DNA of 64,000 nucleotides, taken from Plantibacter flavus (GTDB lineage: Bacteria; Actinomycetota; Actinomycetes; Actinomycetales; Microbacteriaceae). Made by a program: the position numbers and the translations under genes. The notes below the pieces were generated by a model. The model was not told where the DNA came from, searched no databases, and was given only the letters and a program-made list of their open reading frames with translations. Location: positions 1,184,825 through 1,248,824 of the forward strand of contig NZ_FXAP01000001.1 in assembly GCF_900177615.1 (NCBI RefSeq). Reading direction: 5' to 3'. Shown here piece after piece: positions 226-45,379 of this stretch (position 1 is the first letter of the stretch; each line of letters opens with the position of its first letter).

Positions 226-271
226 GCAGTACCACAGACACCGCTCGGGAGTCCGGTGTCGGTGGTGCTGC
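226..271 (+). terminator. Hairpin after uvrB
   Basis: Arms 226-242 and 255-271 pair over 17 bp with one mismatch and one G-U pair around a 12-nt loop. There is no T-run, as is common for actinobacterial terminators. The right arm overlaps the upstream element of the uvrA promoter. Confidence 0.45.
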
Positions 272-278
272 GTAGACT
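256..278 (+). promoter_or_regulatory. uvrA promoter, PafBC/RecA-NDp type
   Basis: TGTCGGTG (257-264), exactly 8 nt, then TAGACT (273-278), and 6 nt later the GTG start of uvrA at 285. The mycobacterial LexA/RecA-independent damage promoter consensus, tTGTCRGTG-N8-TANNNT, is matched at all positions except the first weakly conserved T. The short gap to the start codon predicts a leaderless transcript. No LexA-type palindrome was seen here. Confidence 0.7.
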
Positions 279-284
279 CGAAGG

Positions 285-3176
285 GTGTCAATTGCCAAGG
301 TAGATCACCACTCCACGCTCAGCGTCCGCGGTGCCCGCGTCCACAATCTTCAGAACGTCGACCTCGAGATCCCTCGCGACTCGCTCGTCGTCTTCACGGG
401 TCTCTCGGGCTCGGGGAAGTCCTCACTCGCCTTCGACACGATCTTCGCCGAGGGCCAGCGACGCTACGTCGAGTCGCTCTCGGCGTACGCCCGCCAGTTC
501 CTCGGTCAGGTCGACCGCCCGGACGTCGACTTCATCGAGGGCCTGAGCCCCGCGGTCTCGATCGACCAGAAGTCCACGAACCGCAACCCCCGGTCGACCG
601 TCGGGACGATCACCGAGGTCTACGACTACATGCGGCTGCTCTGGGCGCGCATCGGCGTCCCGCACTGCCCGGTCTGCGGTGAGGTCATCCAGCGCCAGAC
701 GGTGCAGCAGATCGCCGACCAGCTGATGGAGCTCGAGGAGCGACGCCGCTACCAGATCGTCGCCCCCGTGGTGAGCCAGAAGAAGGGCGAGTTCGTCGAC
801 CTCTTCAAGGAGCTCTCGGCCAAGGGCTTCGCGCGCGCCATCGTCGACGGCGAGGCGATCCAGCTCGCGGAACCGCCGACCCTCAAGAAGCAGGTCAAGC
901 ACGACATCGCGGTCGTCGTCGACCGCCTCGTCGCCGGCCCCGAGATCCTCGGTCGCCTGACCGACTCCCTCGAGACGGCACTGCAGCTCACCGACGGTCT
1001 CGTGACGATCAACTTCGTCGACGAGGAGGGCGACGACGCCTGGCGCACCTTCTCCGAGAAGCTCTCCTGCCCGAACAACCACCCGCTGCAGCTGACCGAG
1101 ATCGAGCCGCGGACGTTCTCGTTCAACGCCCCGTTCGGTGCCTGCCCGGAGTGCTCGGGTCTCGGCACGCGCATGTCGGTCGACGCGGAGCTGCTCCTCG
1201 GCGACGAGGAACTCAGCATCAACGAGGGCGTCATCGTCCCGTGGACCACCCAGGGCAAGGGGCTCTACCAGTACTACGAGAAGCTGCTCGACGGGCTGGC
1301 CCGCGACCTCGGCTTCTCGCTCGACACCCCCTGGCGCGACCTGCCGGCCTCGGTCCAGGAAGCGGTGCTCCGCGGCGACAACTTCAAGGTCAAGGTCAAG
1401 TGGAAGAACCGCTTCGGCCGCGAGATGAGCTACTCCTCGGGCTTCGAGGGCGTCATCCCGTACATCGAGCGTCAGTACCTCCAGGCCGACACCGACAGTC
1501 AGCGCGTGCGCTGGTCCGAGTACCTGCGCGAAGTCCCATGCCAGGTCTGCGGCGGTCGTCGCCTCAAGCCCGAGGTCCTCTCCGTCCTGATCCACGAGCA
1601 CAACATCGCCGAGGTCGCCGAACTGAGCCTCTCCGACGCCCGCGCGTTCATGGACCGCCTTGAACTGAGCGACCGCGAGGCCCACATCGCCGCGCAGGTG
1701 CTGCGCGAGATCAAGGTCCGACTCGACTTCCTCATCCAGGTCGGACTCAACTACCTCGACCTGGCCCGGACCGCCGGCTCCCTCTCGGGCGGTGAGGCGC
1801 AGCGCATCCGCCTCGCGACGCAGATCGGCTCGGGACTCACCGGCGTGCTGTACGTCCTCGACGAACCGAGCATCGGCCTGCACCAGCGCGACAACCGCCG
1901 CCTCATCGAGACCCTCGTGGCTCTGCGCGACCTCGGCAACACGCTGATCGTCGTCGAGCACGACGAGGACACCATCCGCACCGCCGACTGGATCGTCGAC
2001 ATCGGTCCCGGCGCGGGCGTCAACGGCGGCCGTGTCGTGCACTCCGGATCGTACGAGGCGCTCGAGGCCAACACCGAGTCCCTCACCGGTGACTACCTCT
2101 CCGGCCGCAAGGCCATCGAGATCCCGGCGAAGCGTCGTCCGATCGACACGAAGCGTCAGATCCAGGTGATCGGAGCGCAGGCCAACAACCTGAAGAAGGT
2201 CAGCGCGGACTTCCCACTCGGAGTCCTCACCGCGGTCACCGGCGTGAGCGGCTCCGGGAAGTCCTCGCTCGTCAACGACGTCCTGTACCGGGTCCTGGCC
2301 AACAAGCTGAACGGCGCGCGCAAGCTGCCCGGCAAGCACACCAGGGTCACGGGTCTGGAGCACCTCGACAAGGTCGTCCACGTCGACCAGGCGCCCATCG
2401 GCCGTACCCCGCGCTCGAACCCCGCCACGTACACCGGCGTCTTCGACAAGATCCGGAACCTCTTCGCGGAGACGCAGGAGGCCAAGGTCCGCGGCTACCT
2501 CGCCGGTCGGTTCAGCTTCAACGTCAAGGGCGGCCGCTGTGAGGCCTGCTCGGGCGACGGCACGATCAAGATCGAGATGAACTTCCTGCCCGACGTCTAC
2601 GTCGCCTGCGAGGTGTGCGGGGGAGCGCGGTACAACCGCGACACCCTGACGATCCACTACAAGGGCAAGAACATCGCCGAGGTCCTCGACATGCCGATCG
2701 CCGAAGCCGCCGACTTCTTCGAGCCGATCTCCTCGATCCACCGGTTCCTGAAGACCCTCGTCGAGGTCGGCCTGGGCTACGTCCGTCTCGGCCAGAGCGC
2801 CACGACGCTGTCCGGCGGCGAGGCCCAGCGCGTCAAGCTCGCGACGGAGCTGCAGCGGCGGAGCAACGGGCGCAGTGTCTACGTCCTCGACGAGCCGACC
2901 ACGGGTCTGCACTTCGAAGACGTCCGGAAGCTGCTGCTCGTCCTCGGCGGGCTCGTCGACAAGGGCAACACGGTCATCGTGATCGAGCACAACCTCGATG
3001 TCATCAAGTCCGCCGACTGGCTCATCGACATGGGCCCGGAGGGTGGAGCCGGTGGCGGGACGGTCCTCGCCACCGGAACACCCGAGCACCTCGCGACGGT
3101 CCCCGGCAGCCACACGGGCTTCTTCCTGAACGAACTGTTCGAGGCAGAGGCCGGCGGCAGCCGCAAGGCGGGCTGA
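285..3176 (+). CDS. uvrA: UvrA, excinuclease ABC subunit A
   Basis: Damage-sensing ATPase of nucleotide excision repair; it loads UvrB at distorted DNA in the cytoplasm. The 963 aa match full length. There are two ABC modules: Walker [10 protein letters not shown] at residues 39-47 and GVSGSGKSS at about 653-661, each followed by an LSGGEAQR signature and a YVLDEP Walker B. Zinc CxxC pairs are visible (CPVC, CPEC, CQVC, CEAC/CEVC). The GTG start is chosen because translation from it gives the normal N-terminus and because a TANNNT box ends 6 nt before it. uvrC follows after 1 nt, so the two are co-transcribed and probably damage-induced together. Confidence 0.97.
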
Positions 3177-3177
3177 C

Positions 3178-5103
3178 GTGGCGGCCGTCCGCGGCGGAAG
3201 TGGTCTGGCGTACCGGCCGAAGGCGGGGGAGATCCCCACCATGCCCGGTGTGTACCGCTTCAGCGACGACTCGGGCCGGGTGCTCTACGTCGGCAAGGCG
3301 ATGAACCTCCGGGCGAGGCTCAGCAACTACTTCGCGCCCCTGCACACCCTCCACGAGCGCACGCGCCGCATGGTGACGACCGCGACCGGGGTCACCTGGA
3401 CGACGGTCGGCAGCGACGTCGAGGCGCTGCAGCTCGAGTACACGTGGATCAAGGAGTACGACCCGCCGTTCAACGTCAAGTTCCGAGACGACAAGTCGTA
3501 CCCGTACCTCGCGGTCACCCTCGGTGACGAGGCGCCGCGCGTCATGGTCACCCGGAACACCCGGATCCCGGGGGCCAAGTACTTCGGTCCGTACCCGAAG
3601 ATCTGGGCCGTCCACGACACGGTCGACCTCATGATCAAGGTCTTCCCGATCCGCACCTGCTCCGACTCGGCGTACAAGCGGGCCATGGCCTCGGGGAAGC
3701 CCTGCTTCCCCGGGCAGATCGGACGGTGCGGCGGCCCGTGCTCCGGCAAGGTCACCATCGAGGAACACCGCGCGATCGTCGACGACTTCGTCTCGTTCAT
3801 GGTCGGCAACGACCGCCGCTTCACGACGCGCATCACCGCCGACATGAAGGCCGCCGCGGCCCGCCAGGACTACGAGTCCGCCGCCGTCTACCGGGATCAG
3901 CTCCAGGCGCTCGACCAGGTGCTCGCGAAGAGCGCGGTCGTCCTGCGCGACGCCGTGGACGCCGACCTGTTCGGCATCGACCACGACGAGCTCGCCGCGT
4001 CGGTGCAGCAGTTCATCGTCCGTGGTGGCCGCATCCGCGGTGTGCGGTCGTGGACCGTCGACAAGGAGCTCGACATGTCGACCGCCGAGCTCGTCGACAG
4101 CGTCGTCCAACGGGTGTACGCCGCCGCGAGCGGGACCGAGGTCCCGCGAGAGGTACTCGTCCCGGAGCTGCCGGACGACGCCGAGAGCCTCGAGGACTGG
4201 CTGGCCGAGCGCCGCGGCTCGAAGGTCGCCCTCCGCGTCGCCCAGCGCGGCGAGAAGGCGACGCTCATGGAGACCGCGGTCGTCAACGCCAAGCAGGCCC
4301 TCATGCTCTACAAGACCCGGCGCAGCTCCGACTTCGTCGCCCGGACGCAGGCGCTCGAGGACATCCGCGATGCGCTCGGGATGCCCGAGGCGCCGCTGCG
4401 GATCGAGTGCTTCGACGTGTCTCATCTGAGCGGTACCAACATCGTGGCGTCGATGGTGGTCTTCGAGGACGGACTGTCCCGCAAGGACGAGTACCGCCGC
4501 TTCGGCGTCGCCGAGTCCACCGACGACACCGACTCGATCTACCAGGTCGTCTCCCGGCGACTCGCGCACCTCACGTCGTCCGAGCCCGTCGAGACGGTCG
4601 ACGAGACCACGCAGGAGCGCAAGCGCCGGAAGTTCACCTATCCGCCGCAGCTCCTCATCGTCGACGGCGGGCAACCGCAGGTCGCCGCTGCCGCGCGTGC
4701 ACTGGAGGAGTCCGGCCTGACCGGGATCACCCTGTGCGGACTGGCGAAGCGACTGGAGGAGATCTGGTTGCCCGACGACCCGTATCCGGTGATCCTGCCG
4801 CGGGGGAGCGAAGCCCTGTTCCTCCTCCAGCGGGTCCGCGACGAGGCGCACCGGTTCGCCATCAGTTTCCAGCGACAGAAGCGGAAGCGCGACATCTCGA
4901 CCGTCCTCGGCGAGATCCCGGGGCTCGGACCGGCGAAGGTCCGCGAGCTGCTCAAGCACTTCGGATCCGTCGCCCGCTTGAAGACCGCGACGCCGGCCGA
5001 GATCACCGAGGTCAAGGGTATCGGCGACAAACTGGCCGCCACGGTGCACGAGGCGTTGACCTCCGGCTCCGCACAGCCCTCGCAGGCCTCGCGGAATGGG
5101 TAG
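3178..5103 (+). CDS. uvrC: UvrC, excinuclease ABC subunit C
   Basis: Dual-incision nuclease of nucleotide excision repair. The 641 aa show an N-terminal GIY-YIG nuclease ([20 protein letters not shown], residues about 21-40), a central UVR motif, an RNase H-like endonuclease domain ([22 protein letters not shown]) and C-terminal helix-hairpin-helix motifs ([13 protein letters not shown] and [13 protein letters not shown]). It starts with GTG one base after the uvrA stop, so translation is probably coupled. In mycobacteria uvrC heads the uvrC-rapZ-whiA block; here uvrA also joins it. Confidence 0.97.
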
Positions 5104-5131
5104 GCTGGGACTTCAGACCTTCGAGGAAAGC

Positions 5132-6019
5132 GTGTCGATGACCCCGGGCCAGCCGCAGCACCAGCAGGAAGTCCTCATCGTCACGGGGATGTCCGGCGCC
5201 GGACGCTCCACCGTCGCGAACGCGCTGGAGGATCTCGGCTGGTACGTCGTCGACAACCTGCCCCCGCAGATGCTCCGTCCCCTCGTCGACCTCGCCGAGC
5301 GCGCCGGATCACGTCTGCCGCGGATCGCCGCGGTGGTCGACGTCCGCGGCCGCGACTTCTTCAGCGAGCTGCAGGAGATCGTGCCGGCGCTCCGGGGCGG
5401 GACGCACCTCCGCATGATCTTCCTGGAGGCGACCGACGCGGCGCTCGTCCGCCGGTTCGAGGCCGTCCGCAGGCCGCACCCGCTGCAGGGCGAGGGAACG
5501 ATCCTCGACGGCATCGTGGCGGAGCGTCACCGACTGAGCGAGATCCGCGAGTCGAGCGATGTCATCATCGACACGAGCGACCTCAACATCCACCAGCTCG
5601 CCACGACCACGCGTGAGCTCTTCGCCGGCGCGGAGACACCGGGTGTCCAGGTCACCGTGCTGAGCTTCGGGTTCAAGTACGGCCTGCCGCCTGATGCGGA
5701 CCTCGTCGCCGACATGCGGTTCCTCCCGAACCCGTTCTGGGTCCCGGAGTTGCGTGCGTTGAGCGGTCAGGACCCCGAGGTCAGTGAGTACGTACTCTCG
5801 CAGACCGGAGCCGCCGAGTTCCTGGAGAGCTACGCCCACGCCCTCGAACCCGTCCTCGCCGGGTACCAGCGCGAGAACAAGCGTCACGTCACCATCGCCG
5901 TCGGCTGCACGGGGGGCAAGCACCGCTCGGTCGCGGTCGCCCTCGAACTCGCCGACCGGCTGCGGAACCAGTCCGGCGTCGCCGTGCACGTCCGGCACCG
6001 AGACCTCGGGCGCGAATGA
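5132..6019 (+). CDS. rapZ: RapZ-family nucleotide-binding protein (YvcJ-like)
   Basis: P-loop protein of the RapZ/YvcJ family. In E. coli RapZ is an RNase adapter controlling GlmZ/GlmY small RNAs, but in Gram-positive bacteria the role is less clear. Walker [10 protein letters not shown] is at residues 19-27, with Arg in place of the usual Lys. The C-terminal domain carries [17 protein letters not shown] and [12 protein letters not shown], typical of the family. The 295-aa start at GTG 5132 follows GAGGAAAG with 5-nt spacing; ATG 5138 is an alternative, and a frame from ATG 5096 overlapping uvrC by 8 nt is less likely. whiA follows, as in other actinobacteria and firmicutes. Confidence 0.9.
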
Positions 6020-6143
6020 CGCCCACGGGCCCGACGCAGCCGCGGCGGAGCCCGAACGGTCCGAGGCACCACGCCTCCGGATCGCGAACATGCAGGATCG
6101 ACGCCGCACTCCGACGGCGCGATCACGACAGATAGGAACCACC

Positions 6144-7121
6144 GTGGCCCTCACCGCCGACGTCAAGAACGAACTGGCGCTCGTCCGCGAGACCCGCAAC
6201 TCGGTCCGAGCGGCCGAACTCGCGTCCTTGCTTCGCTTCTCCGGCGGACTCCACACGATCTCCGGACGCGTGGCGATCGAAGCCGAACTCGACAGTCCGA
6301 CCCTCGCCCAGCGGGTGCGTCGCGACATCGGCGAGCTCTACGGGATCCGCAGCGAGATCCTGGTGCAGAACCCCGGTAGCTCGGGCAAACCGAGCCTGTT
6401 CGTGGTGCGCGTCATCGAGGGCGGGGAGACCCTCGCCCGGCAGACCGGACTCCTCGACGCCCGACGGCGTGCGGTCCGCGGGCTGCCGAACCGGCTGACC
6501 ACCGGGTCGCGCGACGAACTCGCCGCCGTCTGGCGGGGGGCGTTCCTCGCGACCGGGTCCCTGACCGACCCCGGCCGGTCTGCGTCACTCGACGTCGTGT
6601 GCCCCGGCAACGAGTCCGCGATGGCGCTCGTCGGTGCCGCGGGCCGCATCGGTGTCTCCGCGAAGGCACGTGAGGTCCGCGGCATCCATCGTGTCGTCAT
6701 CCGCGAGGGCGACGCGATCAGCGGCATGCTGTCGCTCATGGGTGCCACCGGCACCGTCACCTCCTGGGAGGAGATGCGACAGCGCAAGGAGGTCCGGGCG
6801 ACCGCGAACCGCCTCGTCAACTTCGACGACGCCAACCTGCGCCGCTCCGCCCAGGCTGCCGTGGCGGCCTGCGCGCGCGTCGAGCGCGCCCTGGAGATCC
6901 TGGGCGACGAGGTGCCCGACCACCTGCAGTACGCCGGCGCCCTGCGCCTCGACCACCGTGAGGCCAGCCTCGACGAACTGGGCCACTTCGCCGACCCTCC
7001 GATGACGAAGGACGCCATCGCCGGCCGCATCCGGCGCCTGCTCGCCATGGCGGACAAGCACGCGAGCGATCTCGGCATCCCAGGCACGGACGCCAACCTC
7101 CCGGCGGATTACGAGGACTGA
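6144..7121 (+). CDS. whiA: WhiA, DNA-binding protein WhiA
   Basis: Transcription factor combining a degenerate LAGLIDADG homing-endonuclease fold (N-terminal, no nuclease activity known) with a C-terminal helix-turn-helix. In Streptomyces it acts with WhiB on sporulation septation genes, and in non-sporulating actinobacteria it affects division. The 325 aa begin [12 protein letters not shown] and end with a helical region ([14 protein letters not shown]). GTG 6144 is chosen because AGGA lies 7-10 nt upstream and the N-terminus fits the family; the frame stays open far upstream through rapZ, which is a GC-rich artefact. Confidence 0.93.
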
Positions 7122-7207
7122 AGCAGCTCGTGAATCCTCGCCGACCCGGCATCGTCGCGGTTCGTCATGCTGGGAACAAGCCCCGACTCCCGACGGTTGC
7201 CGCTCAC

Positions 7208-7213
7208 TAGACT
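7208..7213 (+). promoter_or_regulatory. Candidate -10 box of sodA
   Basis: TAGACT lies 63 nt before the sodA start, predicting a leader of roughly 57 nt that ends in a good GAGGAG ribosome site. No clear -35 was seen. Confidence 0.4.
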
Positions 7214-7276
7214 GGGTGATGACGCTCAGAGCCGTGTGCAGACAGCGCACGGGACAACACGAGGAGATCACGAAGA

Positions 7277-7903
7277 ATGGCTGTTTACTCACTGCCCGAA
7301 TTGCCGTACGACTACAGTGCGCTCGAGCCGCACATCAGTGCGACCATCACCGAGCTCCACCACGACAAGCACCACGCCACCTACGTGGCCGGTGCGAACA
7401 CGGCCCTCGAGAAGCTCGCTGAGGCCCGCGACGCCAACGACTTCACGAACGTCAACAAGCTCGAGAAGGACCTCGCGTTCAACCTCGGCGGCCACGTCAA
7501 CCACACCATCTGGTGGAACAACCTCTCCCCGGACGGCGGCGACAAGCCGACCGGCGAGCTCGAGTCCGCCGTCGGCGAGTACTTCGGCAGCTTCGACAAG
7601 TTCCAGGCGCACTTCACCGCCGCTGCGCTCGGCGTGCAGGGTTCCGGATGGGCCGCGCTCACCTGGGACACCCTCGGTCAGCGCATCAACATCCAGCAGT
7701 TCTTCGACCAGCAGGGCAACTTCCCGGCCGGCACCGTCCCGCTGCTGCTGCTCGACGTCTGGGAGCACGCCTACTACCTGGACTACAAGAACGTCCGCGC
7801 CGACTACGTCAAGGCGTTCTGGAACATCGTCAACTGGGCCGACGTCCAGGCACGCTTCGAGGTCGCGCGCAAGCAGACCAACGGCCTGCTGGTACTGTCG
7901 TAG
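7277..7903 (+). CDS. sodA: Superoxide dismutase (Fe/Mn family)
   Basis: Converts superoxide to hydrogen peroxide and oxygen. The 208 aa are full length. The metal-ligand regions are visible: His28 in [12 protein letters not shown], His in [10 protein letters not shown], and Asp plus His in [15 protein letters not shown]. No signal peptide, so cytosolic. ATG 7277 is preceded by GAGGAG and opens with the family N-terminus [15 protein letters not shown]. Metal choice (Mn versus Fe) cannot be decided by eye; the sequence looks like the actinobacterial Mn or cambialistic group. It has its own promoter and terminator. Confidence 0.95.
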
Positions 7904-7907
7904 TTGA

Positions 7908-9035
<1,128 letters not shown>

Positions 9036-9087
9036 CCAATCGGCTGTCTGCCGCACTCCTCACCCGAGCAGCCAGACACCGTATGGT

Positions 9088-9128
9088 CCGAACGGGCGTC
9101 CTGAATCATCTTCAGGGCGCCCGTTCGG
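9088..9128 (+). terminator. Terminator between gap and pgk
   Basis: 18-bp stem (9088-9105 with 9111-9128) containing one G-U pair, loop TCATC. Strong GC-rich hairpin 52 bp after gap. Confidence 0.75.
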
Positions 9129-12013: not shown

Positions 12014-12030
12014 CCGGACAGCACCACATA

Positions 12031-35609: not shown

Positions 35610-36850
35610 GGAACGACGCGTACTCCCTTGCCAACCACGGTGAGACCGGATTCGGTGACGGTGAAACCGCGAGCGCGGTCACGGTCGTGGTCGACACCGA
35701 CGCTCGCGCCGGAGGTGACCACCACATCCTTGTCCAGGATAGCCCGCTTGACGACGGCGTCCGGTTCGATGTGGACCTTGTCGAACACGACCGAGTCGGA
35801 GACGTGGGCGCCGGATTCCACGAGCGCCCACGGCCCGAGGACACTGCGCTCGATGTGGGCACCGGACAGGAGCGAACCGAGGGAGACGATCGAGTCGATG
35901 GTCTGGCCGAGGTTGCCCTTCGCGTCCCGTACGAACTTCGCCGGCGGCGAGTTCAGCTGCGAACTGAAGATCGGCCAGTCGCGGTTGTACAGGTTGAAGA
36001 TCGGGAGCGTCGAGATGAGGTCCTGGTGGGCCTCGTAGAACGAATCGATCGTCCCCACGTCGCGCCAGTAGTAGCGGTCGCGATCCGTCGAGCCGGGCAC
36101 GTCGTTCCGCTGGAGGTCGTAGACGCCGGCCTCGCCGCGGTCGACGAAGTACGGGACGATGTCGCCACCCATGTCGTGGTTCGAACTCGTCACCTCGCCG
36201 TCGTCGATGACCGCCTGCATGAGCGCGTCGGCGTCGAAGACGTAGTTGCCCATCGAGGCGAGCACCTCGCCGGGGGAGTCGGGCAGGCCCGGTGCGTCGA
36301 GCGGCTTCTCGAGGAAGCGGGCGATGGTGGTCGGGTCGTCCGCGTCGACGTCGATGACGCCGAACTGGTCGGCGAGGGAGATGGGCTGACGGATCGCGGC
36401 GACCGTCGCCTTCTTGCCCGAGGCGATGTGCGCCTCGATCATCTGCGCGAAGTCCATGCGGTAGACGTGGTCGGCGCCGACGACCACGACGATGTCGGGC
36501 TTCTCGTCGCGGATCAGGTTGAGGCTCTGCAGGATCGCGTCGGCGGATCCGCTGAACCAGCGCTTCCCGAGGCGCTGCTGCGCCGGCACGGACGCGACAT
36601 AGGAGTCGAGCAGGCCGGACAACCGCCAGGTCTGCGAGACGTGGCGGTCGAGGCTGTGGGACTTGTACTGGGTGAGGACGACGATCTGGGTGAGTCCGGA
36701 GTTGATGAGGTTCGACAGCGCGAAATCGATCAGGCGGTACTGCCCGCCGAACGGTACGGCCGGTTTCGCGCGGTCTGCGGTCAGCGGCATCAACCGCTTC
36801 CCTTCCCCACCAGCGAGGACGATTCCGAAGATCTTCTTTGAGGCGGCCAT
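35606..36850 (-). CDS. glgC: Glucose-1-phosphate adenylyltransferase
   Basis: Makes ADP-glucose from glucose 1-phosphate and ATP. 414 aa, with the nucleotide motif [21 protein letters not shown] at the N-terminus, [12 protein letters not shown] at the active site and a C-terminal left-handed beta-helix. The start ATG 36850 lies 6 nt after a minus-strand TATTGT, so the transcript is probably leaderless. Divergent from glgA across only 45 bp, as in mycobacteria. Confidence 0.96.
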
Positions 36851-36856
36851 GGCTTC

Positions 36857-36889
36857 ACAATAGATGCCGGACGAGACCTGTACTAGCGT
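36857..36889. promoter_or_regulatory. Back-to-back leaderless promoters of glgC and glgA
   Basis: Minus-strand TATTGT (36857-36862) ends 6 nt before the glgC ATG; plus-strand TAGCGT (36884-36889) ends 6 nt before the glgA ATG. The two -10 boxes are 21 bp apart, so the polymerase footprints must overlap. Confidence 0.6.
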
Positions 36890-36895
36890 CTAGAC

Positions 36896-38077
36896 ATGCG
36901 AGTTGATCTTGTGACAAAGGAGTACCCGCCGGAGATCTACGGCGGCGCAGGCGTCCACGTGTCGGAGCTGGTGAAATCCCTCCGCAGCGACATCGACGTG
37001 ACCGTGCGCTGCTTCGGCGCGCCACGCGACGAGGCCGACACCGTCGCGTACGGTGTCCCGGCCGAGCTCCAGGGGGCGAACGGCGCCCTCACGACCCTCG
37101 GGACGGACCTCCTGATCGCCCAGGACGTCGCCGGAGCCGACCTCGTGCACTCGCACACCTGGTACGCGAACGGTGCCGGTCACCTCGCGTCGCTGCTGCA
37201 CGGCATCCCGCACGTCGTGACCGCGCACAGTCTGGAGCCGCTCCGCCCGTGGAAGGCCGAGCAGCTCGGCGGTGGGTACCGCGTGTCCAGCTGGATCGAG
37301 CAGTCCGCCTACGAAGGCGCCGCGGCCGTCGTGGCGGTCAGCGACGGCATGCGTCGCGACATCCTGCGGTCCTACCCGAGCCTCGACCCGGCCAAGGTGC
37401 AGGTCATCTACAACGGGATCGACCTCACCGACTGGCAGCCACGCGTCGACGACGAGGTGCTGCGGTCCCTCGGCATCGACCCGTCCCGTCCCTCCGTCGT
37501 CTTCGTCGGTCGGATCACCCGTCAGAAGGGGCTGCCGTACCTGCTCCGCGCGGCCCGACTGCTGCCGCCCGACGTGCAGCTCATCCTGTGCGCCGGCGCT
37601 CCCGACACCCCCGAGATCCTCGCCGAGGTCAAGGGGCTCGTCGAGGAGCTGCAGCGCGAGCGCACCGGGGTCGTGTGGATCGAACGACTGCTCCCGCGTC
37701 ACGAGTTGTGCACCGTCCTCACCGCCGCCACGACCTTCGTGTGCCCGTCGATCTACGAGCCACTCGGCATCGTCAACCTCGAGGCGATGGCCTGCGGTGC
37801 CGCCGTGGTCGGGACGGGGACCGGCGGCATCCCGGAGGTCGTGCAGGACGGTGTGACCGGCAGGATCGTCCCGCTCGCGCAGGCGTCCGACGGCACCGGC
37901 ACCCCGCTCGACCCGGAGCGTTTCGTCGCCGACCTCGCCGCCACCCTCACCGAGGTCGTCCAGGATCCCGCCCAGGCGAGGGCCTACGGGGCCGCTGGTC
38001 GCCGACGCGCGGAGTCCGACTTCAGCTGGTCGCGCATCGCCACCCAGACGGCGGAGCTGTACCGCAGCCTGGTCTGA
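36896..38077 (+). CDS. glgA: Glycogen synthase / maltose-1-phosphate synthase (GlgA/GlgM, GT4 type)
   Basis: 393-aa GT-B glycosyltransferase using ADP-glucose. The N-terminal KEYPPEIYGGAGVHVSEL is the acceptor-side signature; FVGRITRQKGLPYLL and CPSIYEPLGIVNLEAMACG mark the donor domain with the retaining-enzyme EX7E. This short actinobacterial type was named glgA, but the mycobacterial relative makes maltose 1-phosphate for the GlgE pathway. Which product is made here cannot be told without seeing whether glgE exists in this genome. Confidence 0.9.
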   Translation: MRVDLVTKEYPPEIYGGAGVHVSELVKSLRSDIDVTVRCFGAPRDEADTVAYGVPAELQGANGALTTLGTDLLIAQDVAGADLVHSHTWYANGAGHLASLLHGIPHVVTAHSLEPLRPWKAEQLGGGYRVSSWIEQSAYEGAAAVVAVSDGMRRDILRSYPSLDPAKVQVIYNGIDLTDWQPRVDDEVLRSLGIDPSRPSVVFVGRITRQKGLPYLLRAARLLPPDVQLILCAGAPDTPEILAEVKGLVEELQRERTGVVWIERLLPRHELCTVLTAATTFVCPSIYEPLGIVNLEAMACGAAVVGTGTGGIPEVVQDGVTGRIVPLAQASDGTGTPLDPERFVADLAATLTEVVQDPAQARAYGAAGRRRAESDFSWSRIATQTAELYRSLV

Positions 38078-38128
38078 ACCACCTGCGGGCACCTCGGAGG
38101 ACGGCGACGCGCGACGAGTCTTGGCGGA

Positions 38129-38134
38129 TAGGCT
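38129..38134 (+). promoter_or_regulatory. -10 box for a leaderless ABC ATPase transcript
   Basis: TAGGCT, 6 nt, ATG 38141. Confidence 0.5.
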
Positions 38135-38140
38135 AGGACC

Positions 38141-38953
38141 ATGCCGAGCGTGTTGCAGTTCTCCGATGTGTCCGTCGTCCGTAATCTCAACCCCATCCTC
38201 GATGGCGTCGACTGGACGGTGACGGGCGACCAGCGATGGATCGTCCTCGGCCCGAACGGCGCCGGCAAGACGACGCTCCTGCAGCTCGCGGCGACGCTCA
38301 TCCACCCCTCGAAGGGAACGGTGTCCGTGCTCGACGAGACGCTCGGCCGGGTCGACGTCTTCGAACTGCGCCCGCGCATCGGCTTCGCGTCCTCCGCCCT
38401 CGCGAAGCGGGTGCCGCCGGAGGAGACCGTCCTGGACGTCGTGCTCACGGCGGCCTACTCGGTCACCGGGCGCTGGGTCGAGCAGTACGAGGACATCGAC
38501 GTGAAGCGCGCGTCGCGGGTGCTCGCGGAATGGAAGCTCGACCACCTCGCCGACCGCCGGTTCGGCACGCTCAGCGACGGCGAGCAGAAGCGCGTGCAGA
38601 TCGCGCGGGCCATCATGACCGACCCCGAACTCCTCCTGCTCGACGAGCCGGCCGCGAGCCTCGACCTCGGCACGCGCGAGGAGCTCGTCGAACTGCTGGG
38701 CGGCTACGCGAGCGCCGACGACTCACCGGCGATCATCATGGTGACCCACCACGTCGAGGAGATCCCCGTCGGCTTCACCCACGTCCTGCTCGTACGCGAC
38801 GGTGGCATCGTCGCCGCCGGCCCGATCGCCGAGACACTCACGGCCGAACACCTCAGCGAGACCTTCGACCTCCCGATCGAGCTGAGCGAGGAGGACGGTC
38901 GGTTCCACGCCCGCTCCGTCCGCGCCGGACGCTCGGCCGTCGCCCCCTCCTGA
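38141..38953 (+). CDS. Orphan ABC ATP-binding protein
   Basis: 270 aa, a single ABC domain: Walker [10 protein letters not shown] at 37-45, signature LSDGEQKR (145-152; Asp-Gly in place of the usual Gly-Gly), Walker B LLLLDE at 165-170, and a switch His in VTHHVEEI. It resembles the YlmA/ModF-like cytosolic ATPases. No permease or binding protein adjoins it, so it may not be a transporter part. The substrate is unknown. Confidence 0.85.
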
Positions 38954-39009
38954 CCGCCACGCCTCGGCGAGTCGTCCTCGGCTGGCGAGCAGACGCGCGC
39001 CGAGTCTGG

Positions 39010-39038
39010 TAAAGTCGACCTTTGGCTCGCGGAGCCAA
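39010..39038 (+). promoter_or_regulatory. rpmE2 promoter and leader hairpin
   Basis: TAAAGT at 39010-39015 is the likely -10. A 7-bp hairpin, TTGGCTC-GCG-GAGCCAA (39022-39038), lies at the predicted transcript start, leaving a leader of about 90 nt before the L31 ATG. Ribosomal protein leaders for L31 have been reported in actinobacteria; this is a candidate. Confidence 0.5.
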
Positions 39039-39110
39039 GAGCTTTCTGCCTCGTGCCTGGAGTTCCGAGCGCGGGTACTACCCACACCATCCACTCAACA
39101 AGGACTGCTG

Positions 39111-39359
39111 ATGAAATCTGACATCCACCCCACGTACGAAGCCGTCGTCTTCCGCGACCTCGCCTCCGGCGCGACGTTCCTCACGCGCTCGACGGTCTCG
39201 TCGGGCAAGACGATCGACCTCGACGGCGTCACCTACCCGGTGATCGACGTGGAGATCTCGTCCGAGTCGCACCCGTTCTACACGGGCAAGCAGCGCATCA
39301 TGGACTCCGCCGGTCGCGTCGAGAAGTTCAACCAGCGATTCAAGGGCTTCGGCAAGTAG
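39111..39359 (+). CDS. rpmE2: 50S ribosomal protein L31 type B
   Basis: 82-aa large-subunit protein bL31. It begins [16 protein letters not shown] and has [28 protein letters not shown], diagnostic for the type B form. No cysteine is present, so this is the zinc-independent version that replaces the zinc-binding L31 when zinc is short in bacteria having both. Whether a zinc form exists elsewhere is unknown. An AAGGA ribosome site precedes the ATG. Confidence 0.97.
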
Positions 39360-39377
39360 TCCTTCCGCTGGAGTACA

Positions 39378-39409
39378 CGAACGCCCCGATCCTCGGATCG
39401 GGGCGTTCG
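39378..39409. terminator. Terminator after rpmE2
   Basis: Perfect 14-bp stem (39378-39391 with 39396-39409), loop CTCG, between rpmE2 and the convergent exonuclease. Confidence 0.8.
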
Positions 39410-39431
39410 TCGTCGTGGGGAGCCGTGCGAC

Positions 39432-40205
39432 TCAGATACCGATGGGCAGCTGGTCCGCTGGGACGATGACCAGCGCTTCAGGACGAGCGGCAGGGCGTCC
39501 GGTACGGATGGGCCAAGCGCCTTCGGCGACGAACTCGGGATCGCGCACGCGGCGCATGTAGGACTGGAAGCTCTCCGCCTGCTCGAGCGACCAGGTCCGC
39601 TGGGCCTCGTGCAACTCGTCGACGCTCGTCGGCAGGGCGTCGGCGTGACGCCGACCGATGGCCTGAGCGACGCGTCCGGCGGCGACGGCGTCCACGCCCG
39701 CGTCGTGCGCACCCTCCAGTGGAACGCCGTGCAGGGCGGCGACGACCTCGAGCGTCCGCTTGCCGCGCCGGAACGTGTCGAGCCGCCGGTCGAGGATCAG
39801 CGGGTCGACGACGGGGGACGGGTCGGTGATCGAGGTCACCCCGTGTCGCTCCGCTTCGAAGTGCAGGAGGGAGAAGTCGTAGGGCGCGTTGTAGGCGACC
39901 ACCGGGGTCCGCGCGGCGAACAGTTCGGTGAGGACGGCGACGATCTCTCCGACGACGGTCGGTGCCGGACGCCCCTCAGCCCGGGCCCGCTCCGTCGTGA
40001 CGCCGTGGATCTCGGCGGCGCGAGCGGGGATCTCGACCCCCGGGTCGGCCATCCACGACCACGAGCGTTCGACCGAACCGTCCGCAGTGATGACACCGAC
40101 GAAGGCGGTCACGATGCGACTCGTCTCCACCTCGATGCCCGTCGTCTCGAGATCGAAGACCGCCAGGCGGTCCGTCCAGTGGGGATTCGCATCGACCGTG
40201 TTCAC
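39432..40205 (-). CDS. DnaQ-like 3'-5' exonuclease
   Basis: 257-aa DEDDh exonuclease like the proofreading subunit of DNA polymerase III. ExoI VFDLETTG (Asp18, Glu20), ExoII YNAPYDFSLL (Asp110) and ExoIII GAHDAGVDAVAA (His167, Asp172) are complete. No BRCT or helicase domain follows, so it is a stand-alone nuclease. GTG 40205 is supported by TAGGGT ending 6 nt upstream. Its promoter also carries TGTCGGAG with an 8-nt spacer, suggesting control with uvrA. Confidence 0.9.
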   Translation of the reverse strand: MNTVDANPHWTDRLAVFDLETTGIEVETSRIVTAFVGVITADGSVERSWSWMADPGVEIPARAAEIHGVTTERARAEGRPAPTVVGEIVAVLTELFAARTPVVAYNAPYDFSLLHFEAERHGVTSITDPSPVVDPLILDRRLDTFRRGKRTLEVVAALHGVPLEGAHDAGVDAVAAGRVAQAIGRRHADALPTSVDELHEAQRTWSLEQAESFQSYMRRVRDPEFVAEGAWPIRTGRPAARPEALVIVPADQLPIGI

Positions 40206-40211
40206 GCCTTC

Positions 40212-40234
40212 ACCCTATGACGCGCCTCCGACAG
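40212..40234 (-). promoter_or_regulatory. Exonuclease promoter, PafBC/RecA-NDp type
   Basis: On the minus strand: CTGTCGGAG, 8 nt, TAGGGT, 6 nt, GTG. It differs from the uvrA element by one base within the TGTCGGNG core and has identical spacing. Confidence 0.55.
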
Positions 40235-40297
40235 GGGCCTGTGCCACGCCGGAGCGGCACGGTCCGCATCGTCGGGTGAACGCGGAGCCGGACTCCC

Positions 40298-40303
40298 TAG
40301 ACT
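40298..40303 (+). promoter_or_regulatory. -10 box for a leaderless hydrolase transcript
   Basis: TAGACT, 6 nt, ATG 40310. Confidence 0.55.
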
Positions 40304-40309
40304 GAGTGG

Positions 40310-41212
40310 ATGCCCGTCGAATCACCGTACGCCGACCAGCTCGACCGCATCCCCGTCCGGGAGCGCTCGCTCATCATGGACGGAGCCGAGACCCGGTTCT
40401 GGGACTACGGCGACCAGGAGGCGTCGACGACGATCGTCATGGTGCACGGGTTCCGCGGCGACCACCACGGCCTCGAACCGGTCGTCGCGCAGCTCTCCGG
40501 GTTCCGGATCATCGCTCCGGACCTCCCCGGCTTCGGCAGCTCGGCACCCTTCCCCGAGGCCACCCACTCCGTCGAGGGGTACGCCGCCTGGCTGGGACGG
40601 TTCATCGAGGAGCTGCACCTGACCGGTCGTGTCGTGCTCCTCGGGCACTCGTTCGGCTCGATCGTGTCGAGCGCCGCCGTCGCCGGGGGACTCCGACCGG
40701 ACGACCTCGTCCTCGTGAACCCGATCGCCGCCCCGGCGCTCCAGGGCCCCCGCGGCGTCCTGACGAGGCTCGCGGTCTTCTACTACTGGTCGTCCGCGAA
40801 GCTCCCGAAACGCCTGGGATTCGCGTTCCTCCGCAACAAGGGCGTCGTGCGCATCATGAGCGTCGCGATGTCGAAGACGAAGGACCCGACGCTCCGTCGG
40901 TGGATCCACGCCCAGCACGACCAGTACTTCAGCGCCTTCGCCGACCGGGAGGTCGTCCTCGAGTCGTTCACCGCCTCGGTCAGCCACGACGTCAGCGAGT
41001 ACGCCGACCGGATCCCGAGCCGGACGCTGCTCATCGCCGCCGAGCGCGACGACATCACGCCCGTCGCCGCGCAGTACGCGCTCGCGAAGCGGTTCGCCGA
41101 CGCGCAGCTGCACGTCATCCCGGGCGTCGGACACCTCATCCACTACGAGGAGCCGCACGACGCGGCGCAGCGCCTCACCGCGTTCCTCGCGGACGACCGC
41201 ACCGACGCCTGA
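40310..41212 (+). CDS. Alpha/beta-fold hydrolase
   Basis: 300 aa with the alpha/beta-hydrolase core: oxyanion segment VMVHGFRGDHHG, nucleophile elbow LLGHSFGSIVS, catalytic Asp region AAERDDITP and His in VGHLIHYEEP. No signal peptide. The substrate cannot be inferred; an esterase or lipase-like role is likely. Its stop lies inside a palindrome shared with the convergent sirtuin gene. Confidence 0.88.
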   Translation: MPVESPYADQLDRIPVRERSLIMDGAETRFWDYGDQEASTTIVMVHGFRGDHHGLEPVVAQLSGFRIIAPDLPGFGSSAPFPEATHSVEGYAAWLGRFIEELHLTGRVVLLGHSFGSIVSSAAVAGGLRPDDLVLVNPIAAPALQGPRGVLTRLAVFYYWSSAKLPKRLGFAFLRNKGVVRIMSVAMSKTKDPTLRRWIHAQHDQYFSAFADREVVLESFTASVSHDVSEYADRIPSRTLLIAAERDDITPVAAQYALAKRFADAQLHVIPGVGHLIHYEEPHDAAQRLTAFLADDRTDA

Positions 41213-41228
41213 GGCGTCAGGCGTCGGT
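41201..41228. terminator. Palindrome spanning both convergent stop codons
   Basis: Perfect 12-bp stem (41201-41212 with 41217-41228), loop GGCG. It covers the last three codons and stop of both genes, so each protein ends in Thr-Asp-Ala. Confidence 0.75.
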
Positions 41229-42119
41229 CGCCTCCTGCGAGACGACGCTCGTGAAGGCGGACGGGACCAGGCGAGCGGCGATCCCGGTGAGCGTCTCGCT
41301 GGCACCAGCGTCGAGCTTCACGTCCGCGCGGCCGTCGGCCTTCGTGACGCCGCGGTTGATGACGACGATCGGCAACCGCTTCCGGCGGGCGAGTTCGAGG
41401 AGCCGGATCCCCGAGTTGACCACGAGCGACGACCCGGCGATCACGAGTGCGTCGGCGCCGCGCACGAGTGCTGCCGCCTCGGCGTACTTCTCCGTCGGGA
41501 TGAATTCGCCGAAGAAGACCACGTCCGGCTTCAACATGCCGCCGCAGACCGTGCACACGGGGACGACGATCTCGTCGACCCGCCCGACCTCGGCATCGCC
41601 GTCCGGGTTGATCGTCACGTCCGTCTCGGTGTCGAGCCACGGGTTCAGGGCCGTCATGCGCTCCGCGATGCTCGACCTGGCGTAGCTCTGCCCACAGGAG
41701 AGACAGCTGACGCGGTCCATCGACCCGTGCAGGTCGACGACGCGGCGCGAGCCGGCCCTGACGTGGAGGCCGTCGACGTTCTGCGTGATGACGCCGTCGG
41801 CGATGCCGGCCTCTTCGAGAAGCGCGATCGCCCGGTGGCCGGCGTTCGGGCGAGCGCCGTCGAACCGCTTCCAGCCGAGGTGGCTGCCGGCCCAGTAGCG
41901 TTTGCGCGCGGCGTCGTCGTTGGACAGGAACTGGTCGACCGTCATGGGGGTCCGGACCGGAGCGCCCTGGCCCCGGTAGTCGGGGATGCCGGAGTCCGTG
42001 CTCACGCCGGCCCCGGTGAGGAAGGCGACACGTCGGTCCGCGAGCAGCTCGATCGCCCGTTCGAGCCCGGCCTCGGCCGTCTCGTCAGCGGGATCCCCTG
42101 CTGCGATCAGCGTGCTCAT
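41217..42119 (-). CDS. Sir2-family NAD-dependent protein deacylase
   Basis: 300-aa sirtuin. NAD site FLTGAGVSTDSGIPDYRG (residues 33-50), ITQNVDGLH, catalytic His131 in LHGS, and four zinc cysteines (Cys139, Cys142, Cys189, Cys192). It removes acyl groups from lysines using NAD. Start ATG 42119 has GGAGC just upstream. Not a defence-type sirtuin: it is stand-alone, of ordinary length and without a fused domain. Confidence 0.93.
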   Translation of the reverse strand: MSTLIAAGDPADETAEAGLERAIELLADRRVAFLTGAGVSTDSGIPDYRGQGAPVRTPMTVDQFLSNDDAARKRYWAGSHLGWKRFDGARPNAGHRAIALLEEAGIADGVITQNVDGLHVRAGSRRVVDLHGSMDRVSCLSCGQSYARSSIAERMTALNPWLDTETDVTINPDGDAEVGRVDEIVVPVCTVCGGMLKPDVVFFGEFIPTEKYAEAAALVRGADALVIAGSSLVVNSGIRLLELARRKRLPIVVINRGVTKADGRADVKLDAGASETLTGIAARLVPSAFTSVVSQEATDA

Positions 42120-42257
42120 GCCTGCTCCGTCCATCCGTCCGCGACGATCGGAGTGCTCCGGGCCATCGCTTCCCCTGAGTCTAAACGGCCTCGTTTTCGA
42201 TCGTGTTCCCACTCTGGCAAGGTGGAGGTCGAACATCGCGTCGAGAGGACGTCTCCC

Positions 42258-43061
42258 ATGCAGGTCATCCGGATCACCGATCTCGACGACGGACGACTCG
42301 ACGACTACGCGCGACTGACGGACGTCGCCCTCCGCCGGGTGTCCGAACCCGCCGGTGGCCTGTACATCGCCGAGTCCACGAAGGTCATGGAACGTGCGCT
42401 GCGCGCCGGGCACCGACCGCGATCGGTCCTGCTGCAGGAGAAGTGGCTCGAGGACGTCTCGCCACTCCTCGAGGACCACGACGTCCCGGTCTTCGTCGGC
42501 GAGCCCGCCCTCCTCGAGCAGCTGACGGGCTTCCACCTGCATCGGGGAGCGCTCGCGGCGATGCACCGCCCACCGCTCGCCGACCCCGCCGAACTCCTCG
42601 CCGGCGCCCGCCGGGTGGTCATCCTCGAGGACATCGTCGACCACACCAACGTCGGCGCCATCTTCCGCTCCGTCGCCGGCCTCGGTGCCGACGCGGTCCT
42701 GATCACCCCGCGCTGCGCCGACCCGCTGTACCGTCGAAGCGTCCGCGTCAGCATGGGCACGGTCCTGCAGGTGCCGTGGACCCGCCTGCCGGAATGGGAC
42801 GTCGCATCCGGCGTCCTGCGGAATGCCGGCTTCGAGACGGCCGCCCTGGCCTTGGCCGACGATGCCGTCGACCTCGACACCTATGCTCGGACCGCGCCGG
42901 AACGGCTCGCCATCGTGCTCGGCGCCGAGGGTGACGGTCTGAGTGCCTCGGCCCTCGCCGCCGCCGACACGATCGTGACCATCCCGATGCTCCACGGCGT
43001 CGACTCGCTGAACGTCGCGTCGGCCAGTGCCGTCGCCCTCTGGGAGCTCCGGGTCCGCTGA
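42258..43061 (+). CDS. TrmH/SpoU-family RNA methyltransferase
   Basis: 267 aa. An N-terminal L30e-like substrate domain (residues about 20-100) precedes the knotted SPOUT domain: HTNVGAIFRSVAGLGADAVL, IVLGAEGDGLS and SLNVASASAVALWEL are motifs 1-3. It methylates the 2'-O of a tRNA or rRNA nucleotide with SAM; the target is not predictable from sequence. ATG 42258 follows GAGAGGA. Confidence 0.9.
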   Translation: MQVIRITDLDDGRLDDYARLTDVALRRVSEPAGGLYIAESTKVMERALRAGHRPRSVLLQEKWLEDVSPLLEDHDVPVFVGEPALLEQLTGFHLHRGALAAMHRPPLADPAELLAGARRVVILEDIVDHTNVGAIFRSVAGLGADAVLITPRCADPLYRRSVRVSMGTVLQVPWTRLPEWDVASGVLRNAGFETAALALADDAVDLDTYARTAPERLAIVLGAEGDGLSASALAAADTIVTIPMLHGVDSLNVASASAVALWELRVR

Positions 43062-43133
43062 CCACGGTCGCACGCTGCTCGAGACCGCCCGCTCGGCGGC
43101 ACGTCGCGACAGGGTACGCGCAGGAGCGCCGGG

Positions 43134-43139
43134 TAGCAT
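43134..43139 (+). promoter_or_regulatory. -10 box for a leaderless carboxypeptidase transcript
   Basis: TAGCAT, 6 nt, GTG 43146. Confidence 0.5.
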
Positions 43140-43145
43140 GACCGG

Positions 43146-44390
43146 GTGCCACTCACGAGACGACAGATCTACCGCCGCCGCCGTCTCGCCGTCTTCGGCG
43201 TCCTCGCCCTCCTCATCGGGCTGTTCGGCTACAGCGCTGGCGCGCTGCTCCGTCCGGTGCCGGCCGCGGCTGCGACGCTCGAATCCAGCGACGCCCTCAC
43301 CACCTCGCTCGTCCAGCAGACCACACCGGTCGCCTGGCCAGGGTTCGGGCGGGGCGCCATCGGTGCCGTCGGGTTCGACGGCGTCTTGAGTTCGAGTGGC
43401 GAGCAGACGCCGTTCCCCATTGCGAGCATCACGAAGACGATCACCTCCCTGGTCGTGCTGGAGGCCAAGCCGCTCGCCGCGGGGGATCAGGGCCCGTCCA
43501 TCACGCTGACCGACGCCGACGTCGGCTTCTACTACGACACCATCGCGGAGAACGGTTCAGCGGCACCCGTCGTCGCCGGGTCGGTGTTCACCCAGCGGCA
43601 GATGCTCGAAGCACTGCTCCTCCCATCGGCGAACAACTACAGCATCTCCCTCGCCGTCTGGGCCTTCGGTTCGGTCGACGCGTACCTCGACGCCGCGCGC
43701 GCCTGGCTCGATGCACGTGGGCTGACGGGCACCACCGTCACGAACACGAGCGGCCTGGGCGAGACGAACGTCAGCACCCCGAGCGACCTCGTGACCATCG
43801 GCAAGCTCGTACTCGCCGACCCGGTGCTCTCGTCGATCGTCAAGGAGCCCACGGCGGTGCTCCCCGCCATCGGCGAGGTCGAGAACACGAACGCCCTCCT
43901 CGGCCAGTACGGGGTGACCGGCATGAAGACGGGGACCGACGACGCCTCCGGCGCCTGCCTGCTGTTCTCCGCCGACCTCCAGGTGGAGGGGCGGACGGTG
44001 ACCGTCGTCGGCGTCATCCTCGGTGCCGACGACCACACCGTGCTCAACGAGGCCGTGGTCTCCCTGTTGCAGAGCGTGCCGGCCGGATTCCACCAGGTCC
44101 AGCTCGCCACCGCCGGGCAATCGGTCGGCTCGTACTCGACCGCGTGGGATCAGGCCGCGAAGGTCGTCGTGGCGTCCGACGCCAACGTGCTCGTCTGGCA
44201 GGACACCCCGATCACGGTCGAGAGCCGCGCCAGAGCCATCGACGCCGGTGCCGCCGGTTCGACGGTCGGGAAGCTCAGCTACACCGTGGGAGCCGGCGCG
44301 GAGGGTGGTGCGGCGACGATCGACGTCCCGCTGGCCCTCGACGCGAACGTCGCCCCGGTCACGCCCTGGTGGCGCCTGACCAACCCGTGA
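43146..44390 (+). CDS. D-alanyl-D-alanine carboxypeptidase (S11-type PBP)
   Basis: 414-aa low-molecular-mass penicillin-binding protein that trims peptidoglycan stem peptides. A basic N-terminus and one membrane-spanning or signal segment (LAVFGVLALLIGLFGYSAGAL, residues 14-34) place the domain outside the cell. Catalytic motifs: SITK (Ser94-Lys97), SAN (161-163) and KTG (261-263). The GTG start is supported by TANNNT 6 nt upstream. A C-terminal beta domain follows, as in DacA/DacC. Confidence 0.9.
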   Translation: MPLTRRQIYRRRRLAVFGVLALLIGLFGYSAGALLRPVPAAAATLESSDALTTSLVQQTTPVAWPGFGRGAIGAVGFDGVLSSSGEQTPFPIASITKTITSLVVLEAKPLAAGDQGPSITLTDADVGFYYDTIAENGSAAPVVAGSVFTQRQMLEALLLPSANNYSISLAVWAFGSVDAYLDAARAWLDARGLTGTTVTNTSGLGETNVSTPSDLVTIGKLVLADPVLSSIVKEPTAVLPAIGEVENTNALLGQYGVTGMKTGTDDASGACLLFSADLQVEGRTVTVVGVILGADDHTVLNEAVVSLLQSVPAGFHQVQLATAGQSVGSYSTAWDQAAKVVVASDANVLVWQDTPITVESRARAIDAGAAGSTVGKLSYTVGAGAEGGAATIDVPLALDANVAPVTPWWRLTNP

Positions 44391-44429
44391 CCGCAGCAGA
44401 CGCCGGAGCCCGGGTGTCCGGTCGGGCGG

Positions 44430-45239
44430 TCAGACGTCGAGTTCCTGGTCCTGCGCTGCGACCGTGAGGAACGGGCCGGCGAGCGGTCGCTTGGCGGTGA
44501 TGTGGTCGCCGGACGACTGGTGCCGCACCCGACGGAGCACCCACGGCACGAGGTACTCACGCGCCCAGGCGAAGTCCTCGGTCCGGGCCTGACGCCAACG
44601 CCTGACGGGGAGCGGCTCCGGCTGCAGCGGCTTGAGGTCGTTCTCCACGTTCAGCGCGTGCAGGACGAGCCGGGCGACCTCGTGATGGCCGAGCGCGTTC
44701 AGGTGCAGGCGGTCCGGTGCCCACATCCGCGGATCCTGGATCGCCTGGAGTGCCCACTGGTCGGCGATGATGCAGTCGTGTCGGGCGGCGATGGCCCGCA
44801 GGTTCTCGTTGTAGATCGCGACCTTGCCGCGGATGCTCCGGAAGACGGGGGAGAAGCCGACGTCCACGCCGGTGAACAGCACGACCGTCGCTCCATCGCT
44901 CCGGAGGCGGATGATCGCCTGCTCGAGTCGTCTGGCGATGTCGTCGGGGTCGGTGCCGGGCCGGATCACGTCGTTGCCGCCCGCCGAGATCGTGATGAGG
45001 TCGGGGTGAAGCTCCAGGGCCGGCTCCACCTGGTCGTCGAGGATCTGCTGCGCGAGCTTGCCGCGCACCGCGAGGTTGGCGTAGGCGAAGTCCGAGTTCT
45101 GCGCGGCCAGCACCTCGGCGACCCGATCGGCCCACCCACGGTGCCCGCCCGGCGCCCCCGGCTCGGGATCGCCGATCCCCTCGGTGAACGAGTCGCCGAT
45201 GGCGACGTACCGCGACCAGGGATGGTGCTGTTCGGTCAT
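44430..45239 (-). CDS. SGNH/GDSL-family hydrolase
   Basis: 269 aa with the SGNH blocks: GDSFTEG (catalytic Ser), a Gly-containing LAVRG, GGND and a C-terminal DRLHLNALGH with the Asp-His pair. No signal peptide, so cytosolic. Likely an esterase or lipase-like enzyme; the substrate is unknown. ATG 45239 has GAGGAT at suitable distance. It is divergent from the SF2 helicase at 45388. Confidence 0.88.
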   Translation of the reverse strand: MTEQHHPWSRYVAIGDSFTEGIGDPEPGAPGGHRGWADRVAEVLAAQNSDFAYANLAVRGKLAQQILDDQVEPALELHPDLITISAGGNDVIRPGTDPDDIARRLEQAIIRLRSDGATVVLFTGVDVGFSPVFRSIRGKVAIYNENLRAIAARHDCIIADQWALQAIQDPRMWAPDRLHLNALGHHEVARLVLHALNVENDLKPLQPEPLPVRRWRQARTEDFAWAREYLVPWVLRRVRHQSSGDHITAKRPLAGPFLTVAAQDQELDV

Positions 45240-45356
45240 GGGTGGATCCTCCTGCTGTGCATCCGGAACCTCCAGCGTACGCCCGCCCCTCGGCTGGCGG
45301 ATCAGTCGCGAGTCGGACATCCGGATGGGTGTCGAGGCCGCGCACGATGGTCGGCG

Positions 45357-45379
45357 GTGTCGGCGCGGCCGGGTACAGT
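45357..45379 (+). promoter_or_regulatory. SF2 helicase promoter, PafBC/RecA-NDp type
   Basis: GTGTCGGCG (45357-45365), 8 nt, TACAGT (45374-45379), 8 nt, GTG 45388. It matches the uvrA promoter except for C in place of T at one position of the upstream element. Confidence 0.55.

Follow-up and report, generated by a model that had tools for sequence, protein, structure and literature searches.

A PafBC-type promoter element predicted ahead of uvrA, a DnaQ-like exonuclease gene and an SF2 helicase gene in Plantibacter flavus

A 64,000-nucleotide (nt) stretch of the Plantibacter flavus genome (contig NZ_FXAP01000001.1, positions 1,184,825 to 1,248,824; hereafter the window) carries uvrA, a DnaQ-like exonuclease gene and a superfamily 2 (SF2) helicase gene together with pafB and pafC, raising the question of whether the three genes share a PafBC-controlled promoter. 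An initial annotation had proposed that each displays TGTCGGNG, an 8-nt spacer and TANNNT, placed 6–8 nt before a GTG start, and that this points to a PafBC regulon. Reading of all three sites confirms the arrangement; the uvrA and helicase sites lie where they were first placed, while the exonuclease motif begins at 40233 and not at 40234, a shift of one base (Table 1). Domain matches confirm that pafB and pafC lie in the same window. To judge from the sequence, the shared element is highly likely to be a PafBC-dependent (RecA-NDp) sigma-A promoter, and uvrA, the exonuclease gene and the helicase gene very probably belong to the PafBC regulon. This reading is supported by a genome-wide excess of the motif, the repair functions of its targets, its conservation at a single spacer length and the pafBC pair itself.

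Table 1. Predicted promoters and associated genes in the window.
Feature	Position	Strand	Description
PafBC/RecA-NDp-type promoter of uvrA	257..278	+	TGTCGGTG 257-264, spacer 8 nt, TAGACT 273-278; GTG start at 285, 6 nt after -10
PafBC/RecA-NDp-type promoter of DnaQ-like exonuclease	40212..40233	-	TGTCGGAG 40233-40226, spacer 8 nt, TAGGGT 40217-40212; GTG start at 40205, 6 nt after -10
PafBC/RecA-NDp-type promoter of SF2 helicase	45358..45379	+	TGTCGGCG 45358-45365, spacer 8 nt, TACAGT 45374-45379; GTG start at 45388, 8 nt after -10
uvrA	285..3176	+	UvrA interaction and DNA-binding domains; GTG start; predicted leaderless
DEDDh 3'-5' exonuclease, DnaQ-like	39432..40205	-	NCBIfam NF005927 / PRK07942, 275.6 bits vs cut-off 186; predicted leaderless
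SF2 helicase	45388..47205	+	ResIII/DEAD; Helicase_C narrowly below cut-off; closest solved relatives XPB-type by sequence
pafB	55230..56270	+	WYL and WCX domains; aligns with PafB chains of 6sj9, 7p5x and 9fnd
pafC	56263..57273	+	HTH_PafC (113.1 bits), WYL and WCX domains; aligns with PafC of 6sj9 and 7p5x; proposed GTG start overlaps pafB stop

Exact TGTCNGNG-N8-TANNNT occurs three times in the window, precisely at the uvrA, exonuclease and helicase sites, against a mean of 0.13 and a maximum of 2 exact matches in 100 dinucleotide shuffles of the same DNA. Alignment of 16 P. flavus promoters, comprising the 13 genes with motif plus start described below and those of a uvrD-type gene, recA and holA, reveals preferences in addition to those that the search pattern imposed: G occupies position 9 in 13/16, and the two bases preceding TGTC are G in 13/16 and 11/16. 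None of the 16 contains a TTGACA-like -35 hexamer with fewer than three mismatches at 16–18 nt from the -10. With the -10 placed at -12 to -7, the element spans -28 to -21 and fits the -26 motif, which PafB contacts in the mycobacterial initiation complex (PMC11804915). The same placement puts start codons 6–8 nt downstream at about +1 to +3; the uvrA, exonuclease and helicase mRNAs are predicted to be leaderless. Mycobacterial RecA-NDp promoters share the TGTCGG -26 element, the 10 nt from the last G to TA and the TA-N3-T -10, and the M. tuberculosis form is given as TGTCGG-N10-TA-N3-T (PMC8151990).

Extension of the search to the whole genome (4.30 Mb, 11 contigs), with the reversed pattern as control, places the motif in excess, most clearly where a start codon follows 6–8 nt downstream (13 matches vs 3 for the reversed pattern). 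Thirteen of the 23 exact matches have a start at this distance, for which base composition gives a chance estimate of 3e-9, and 11 of these 13 genes act in DNA replication or repair. Specifically, the set comprises dnaX, sbcD, radA, mfd, an SRAP gene, recG, a gyrB/parE-like gene, uvrB (its promoter outside the left edge of the window), uvrA, the exonuclease and helicase genes, and genes for a 101-residue protein and a 288-residue zinc-finger protein, with names and functions assigned from Pfam or from reading of translations. Other exact matches lie farther from the start, at 10 nt for the uvrD/pcrA-type gene, 22 for holA, 30 for an HNH-type gene, 77 for a metK-like gene, 94 for a PhoH-like gene and 122 for recA, the last identified by reading of its translation. 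The recA gene has an in-frame TTG 26 nt after the motif, its listed start lying at 122 nt. At the remaining exact matches in this genome (L004, L006, L011, L016) no convincing target gene is found.

The 101-residue protein (L001:1529-1831) has no Pfam match and begins 6 nt after its exact motif. The zinc-finger protein stands directly after an exact motif in both P. flavus (L005:628-1494, minus strand, 288 residues) and Curtobacterium (L166:1529-2509, plus strand, 327 residues), combining a treble-clef zinc finger, DUF4379, just below cut-off with a very weak C-terminal Vsr/DUF559/REase-like match. These features make it a candidate damage-inducible nuclease.

LexA/SOS control of the three genes, with the TGTC element incidental, was weighed by means of the SOS consensus CGAACNNNNGTTCG. 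SOS-like sites near two of the promoters lie at 112-125 (1 mismatch, apparently falling at the end of uvrB) and at 40318-40331 (2 mismatches). The window contains no exact CGAACNNNNGTTCG, and sites with up to 2 mismatches show a general excess across its length (95 vs 62 expected), on which grounds SOS control is rejected as the explanation of the element. Dual control by PafBC and SOS has been described for recA, uvrA and uvrC (PMC8223512), but the conserved -26 element and its spacing would be left unexplained, and SOS control in place of a PafBC-dependent promoter is very unlikely.

Conservation of the PafBC-type element was followed in 80 exonuclease loci of relatives from the named genome collection. 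These loci cover 16 named genera, several metagenome-assembled genomes named only to phylum or order and one genome titled Planococcus; where a genus is given, it belongs almost always to the Microbacteriaceae. With a start codon 5–9 nt downstream, the exonuclease motif has no mismatch in 36/80 and at most one in 62/80. All 62 of these have the 8-nt spacer, against 0–1/80 at each of spacers 4–7 and 9–12. The helicase is present in 21 of the 80 loci and shows the same selectivity, with the motif at 0–1 mismatch in 13/21 at spacer 8 and in 0–1/21 at other spacers, and other gene-like open reading frames of the same loci carry it in 9/766 cases. A chance resemblance between GC-rich promoters with nothing in common beyond a sigma-A -10 and leaderless initiation would accommodate the -10/start spacing, which is not particular to this promoter class: pafB (window 55200-55232) has TAGACT 6 nt ahead of its GTG without the TGTCGGNG element, which would suit constant levels of PafBC. 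It would also accommodate one-mismatch matches, which hardly exceed shuffles in the window. An upstream element held at one exact spacer in 62/80 exonuclease loci of 16 named genera, the repair-gene content of the P. flavus matches and the excess in the 38 genomes of the class given below all argue against it; chance is extremely unlikely and is rejected by the spacer scan.

Another activator, such as WhiA, could in principle use the element. The WhiA site GACAC reads GTGTC on the opposite strand, and G immediately precedes TGTC in 11/16 of the P. flavus promoters. In the exonuclease orthologs, however, TGTC frequently follows an A (GATGTC), and on this ground WhiA-like control is rejected; moreover, the targets are DNA repair genes, the genome encodes pafBC, and the motif is identical to the PafBC element already described. 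WhiA is thus an extremely improbable user of these sites, and a PafBC-dependent promoter is the preferred reading.

Conservation across the order was assessed in the top-scoring 30 loci per gene from searches of 59 genomes, P. flavus included, which are not a random sample. Within 300 nt upstream, the top site shows 0–1 mismatch in 18/30 exonuclease loci and 5/30 helicase loci, four of these five being from the same family as P. flavus. On this sequence record the exonuclease is a broadly conserved predicted target and the helicase mainly a family-level one. Among 32 further genomes of the class, the NF005927 cut-off is exceeded in 13 (f21, 10/11; f22, 0/14; others, 3/7). In the ten f21 exonuclease loci the best site is TGTCAGTG with correct spacing and a single mismatch at the first -10 base, the distance to the start being mostly longer. 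A different DnaQ-like paralog in f22 (L226, L233-L237) is preceded by TGTCGG or TGTCAG, equally spaced from a -10 that reads CATNCT, with 1–2 mismatches in total and a start 6–7 nt downstream; it may be that another exonuclease fills the PRK07942-type role there.

The association between motif and regulator was tallied in 156 of the 396 genomes of a phylum draw, with families f31, f66 and f61 picked for showing matches and not constituting a fair sample. The 38 genomes of the class to which P. flavus belongs together have 862 occurrences of motif plus start vs 18 of the reversed pattern, and a strong PafC match is present in 38/38. Outside the class, counts of 97 vs 2 in f31 (17 genomes), 41 vs 0 in f66 (8 genomes) and 11 vs 0 in f61 (6 genomes) are accompanied by strong PafC matches in 17, 8 and 6 genomes, respectively, and f28, with PafC matches weak at best, yields 13 vs 18 in 33 genomes. 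Across the tallied families the association is clear, not perfect, owing to f25 and f34, considered below. Family f21, one of large genomes, contributes 371 vs 4 in 11 genomes, a count that sits oddly, if f21 is Streptomycetaceae, with the remark that in an initial search the PafBC motif of M. smegmatis was not seen to be conserved in S. venezuelae (PMC9380542).

Several observations weigh against the PafBC interpretation. In the window, the one-mismatch TGTCGG form shows a weak excess (5 vs a shuffle mean of 2.07, with 7/100 shuffles reaching 5), so that the case stands on the exact matches, on where they lie and on how well they are conserved. The three window sites have T, A and C at base 7 of the element, whereas the mycobacterial consensus quoted in the initial annotation has T. 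In the whole genome, exact matches are only twofold enriched without the start-codon condition (23 vs 11 for the reversed pattern). Of recA, ruvC, dnaE2 and adnAB, the genes that the initial annotation had named to look for among the matches, recA is found, but ruvC, dnaE2 and adnAB are absent from the 23 exact matches, degenerate sites not having been searched for in this genome. The motif is missing from most helicase orthologs of other families, with at least 2 mismatches in 25/30 loci across the order, and 18/80 exonuclease loci have 2–6 mismatches, including 5/5 from Leucobacter and 2/2 from Pseudoclavibacter, although PafC is present in all seven genomes. At the family level, f25 has few matches despite PafC (12 vs 3 in 16 genomes, strong PafC in 15), and f34 has an excess (28 vs 9 in 38 genomes) with PafC matches weak at best. 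Finally, some pattern matches, for example those on contig 2 of Frondihabitans sucicola, are probably not PafBC sites.

The seven motif-less exonuclease loci (L086, L095, L098, L114 and L142 in Leucobacter; L145 and L162 in Pseudoclavibacter) suggested that their genomes might lack PafC, an idea rejected by its presence in 7/7, with generally weaker scores. Motif-plus-start matches number 13–33 in each of the five Leucobacter genomes and 2 and 8 in the two Pseudoclavibacter genomes; with PafC and the genome-wide motif both kept, loss of the motif at the exonuclease does not amount to loss of the system. Both L098 and L114 contain a divergent gene that carries an exact motif and reads as an alpha/beta hydrolase. 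Relatives also carry the motif at a UvrD-like gene, possibly AdnA-type, assigned by Pfam in L187 and by reading in L192.

Repeated copies of the motif were seen in two further genomes. In Cryobacterium sp. MP_M3 (G456; L203-L208), six sites have an identical motif ahead of proteins with similar N-termini, one of which, when scanned, proved to be DUF222 with an HNH-like end; this multicopy family seems to bring its own promoter copy. In F. sucicola (G461; L194-L202), 11 of 34 motif-plus-start matches fall on the 450-kb contig 2, and three of the encoded proteins were scanned, yielding no family above cut-off. These matches at first suggested that a mobile element carries a PafBC regulon, but most sites lie in a longer repeated cassette, in which a TGACG-like stretch precedes the -10 by about 18 nt and a leader separates the promoter from the likely start codon; these sites are as likely to be ordinary promoters.

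By extension from published mycobacterial work, DNA damage in P. flavus would expose single-stranded DNA, to which the PafBC heterodimer would bind through its WYL domains. The heterodimer would then let the housekeeping RNA polymerase use promoters composed of the -26 element (TGTCGGNG) and a -10, and a PafBC–RNA polymerase complex has been described (PMC11804915). Through this route, uvrA, the exonuclease and the helicase would be transcribed after damage as leaderless mRNAs, together with a putatively co-induced set comprising uvrB, recA, radA, recG, mfd, sbcD, dnaX, the parE-like gene, holA and the SRAP gene.

Neither the promoter class nor its regulator is new, and uvrA is already named as a PafBC target in the PafBC regulon of M. 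smegmatis and M. tuberculosis, which shares with P. flavus the targets recA and uvrA (PMC8223512) as well as a pafB–pafC pair. In M. smegmatis, pafBC deletion lowers RecA, RecQ, HolB, GyrB, a DNA helicase and a 5'-3' exonuclease, and the table of lowered proteins in that report contains no DnaQ-type exonuclease (PMC5656591). The P. flavus system differs from the mycobacterial one in the variable base 7 and in targets that include a PRK07942-type exonuclease and an SF2 helicase that carries the motif mainly at the family level. According to a review, the RecA-NDp class reaches other Actinobacteria (PMC8223512; also PMC8151990, PMC6789036 and PMC5087735). The Streptomyces macrodomain gene SCO6735, for instance, has a RecA-NDp promoter and is reported to be ultraviolet-inducible, thus representing the same class outside mycobacteria, in a report on a single gene (PMC5087735). 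Among solved structures, the top-scoring relative of both window proteins is 6sj9, the PafBC of Arthrobacter aurescens, which has the same PafB/PafC domain layout in fused form (PMC6789036), whereas the two are encoded by separate genes here. What is added appears to be a Microbacteriaceae target list, the exonuclease and helicase as predicted members, and a setting without PF03136.

This last family, covering Pup ligase and Dop, is a further difference from the mycobacterial system. PF03136, the one family of the Pup-proteasome locus searched for, is found in 0/299 Microbacteriaceae genomes of 85 genera and in 0/268 of the subset with completeness of 90% or more and contamination of 5% or less, with Corynebacterium glutamicum positive as control. 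It was likewise not found in P. flavus itself, in the six family members of the phylum draw (0/6, P. flavus included) or in the genomes behind the named loci (0/22), although PafC is above cut-off in 6/6 and 22/22 of the latter two sets. Motif plus start occurs 119 times vs 5 for the reversed pattern in the 6-genome set (13–25 per genome) and 394 vs 4 in the 22-genome set (2–34 per genome), the latter hand-chosen, ten of its genomes for poor exonuclease motifs, and possibly overlapping the former.

Whether the following holds for Microbacteriaceae as a whole is evenly balanced: PafBC would run a broad, largely leaderless damage regulon without Pup ligase/Dop, including repair factors not previously recognised, namely the XPB-like SF2 helicase and the L005/L166 protein. 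Under such an arrangement, the pupylation-based shut-off described in mycobacteria could not operate in Microbacteriaceae, which lack Pup ligase/Dop. This raises the questions of how the damage response ends without pupylation and of a possible repair role for the helicase and the zinc-finger protein. Collectively, this damage response, so far studied chiefly in mycobacteria, would be extended to a further large family, with a sequence-based list of targets.

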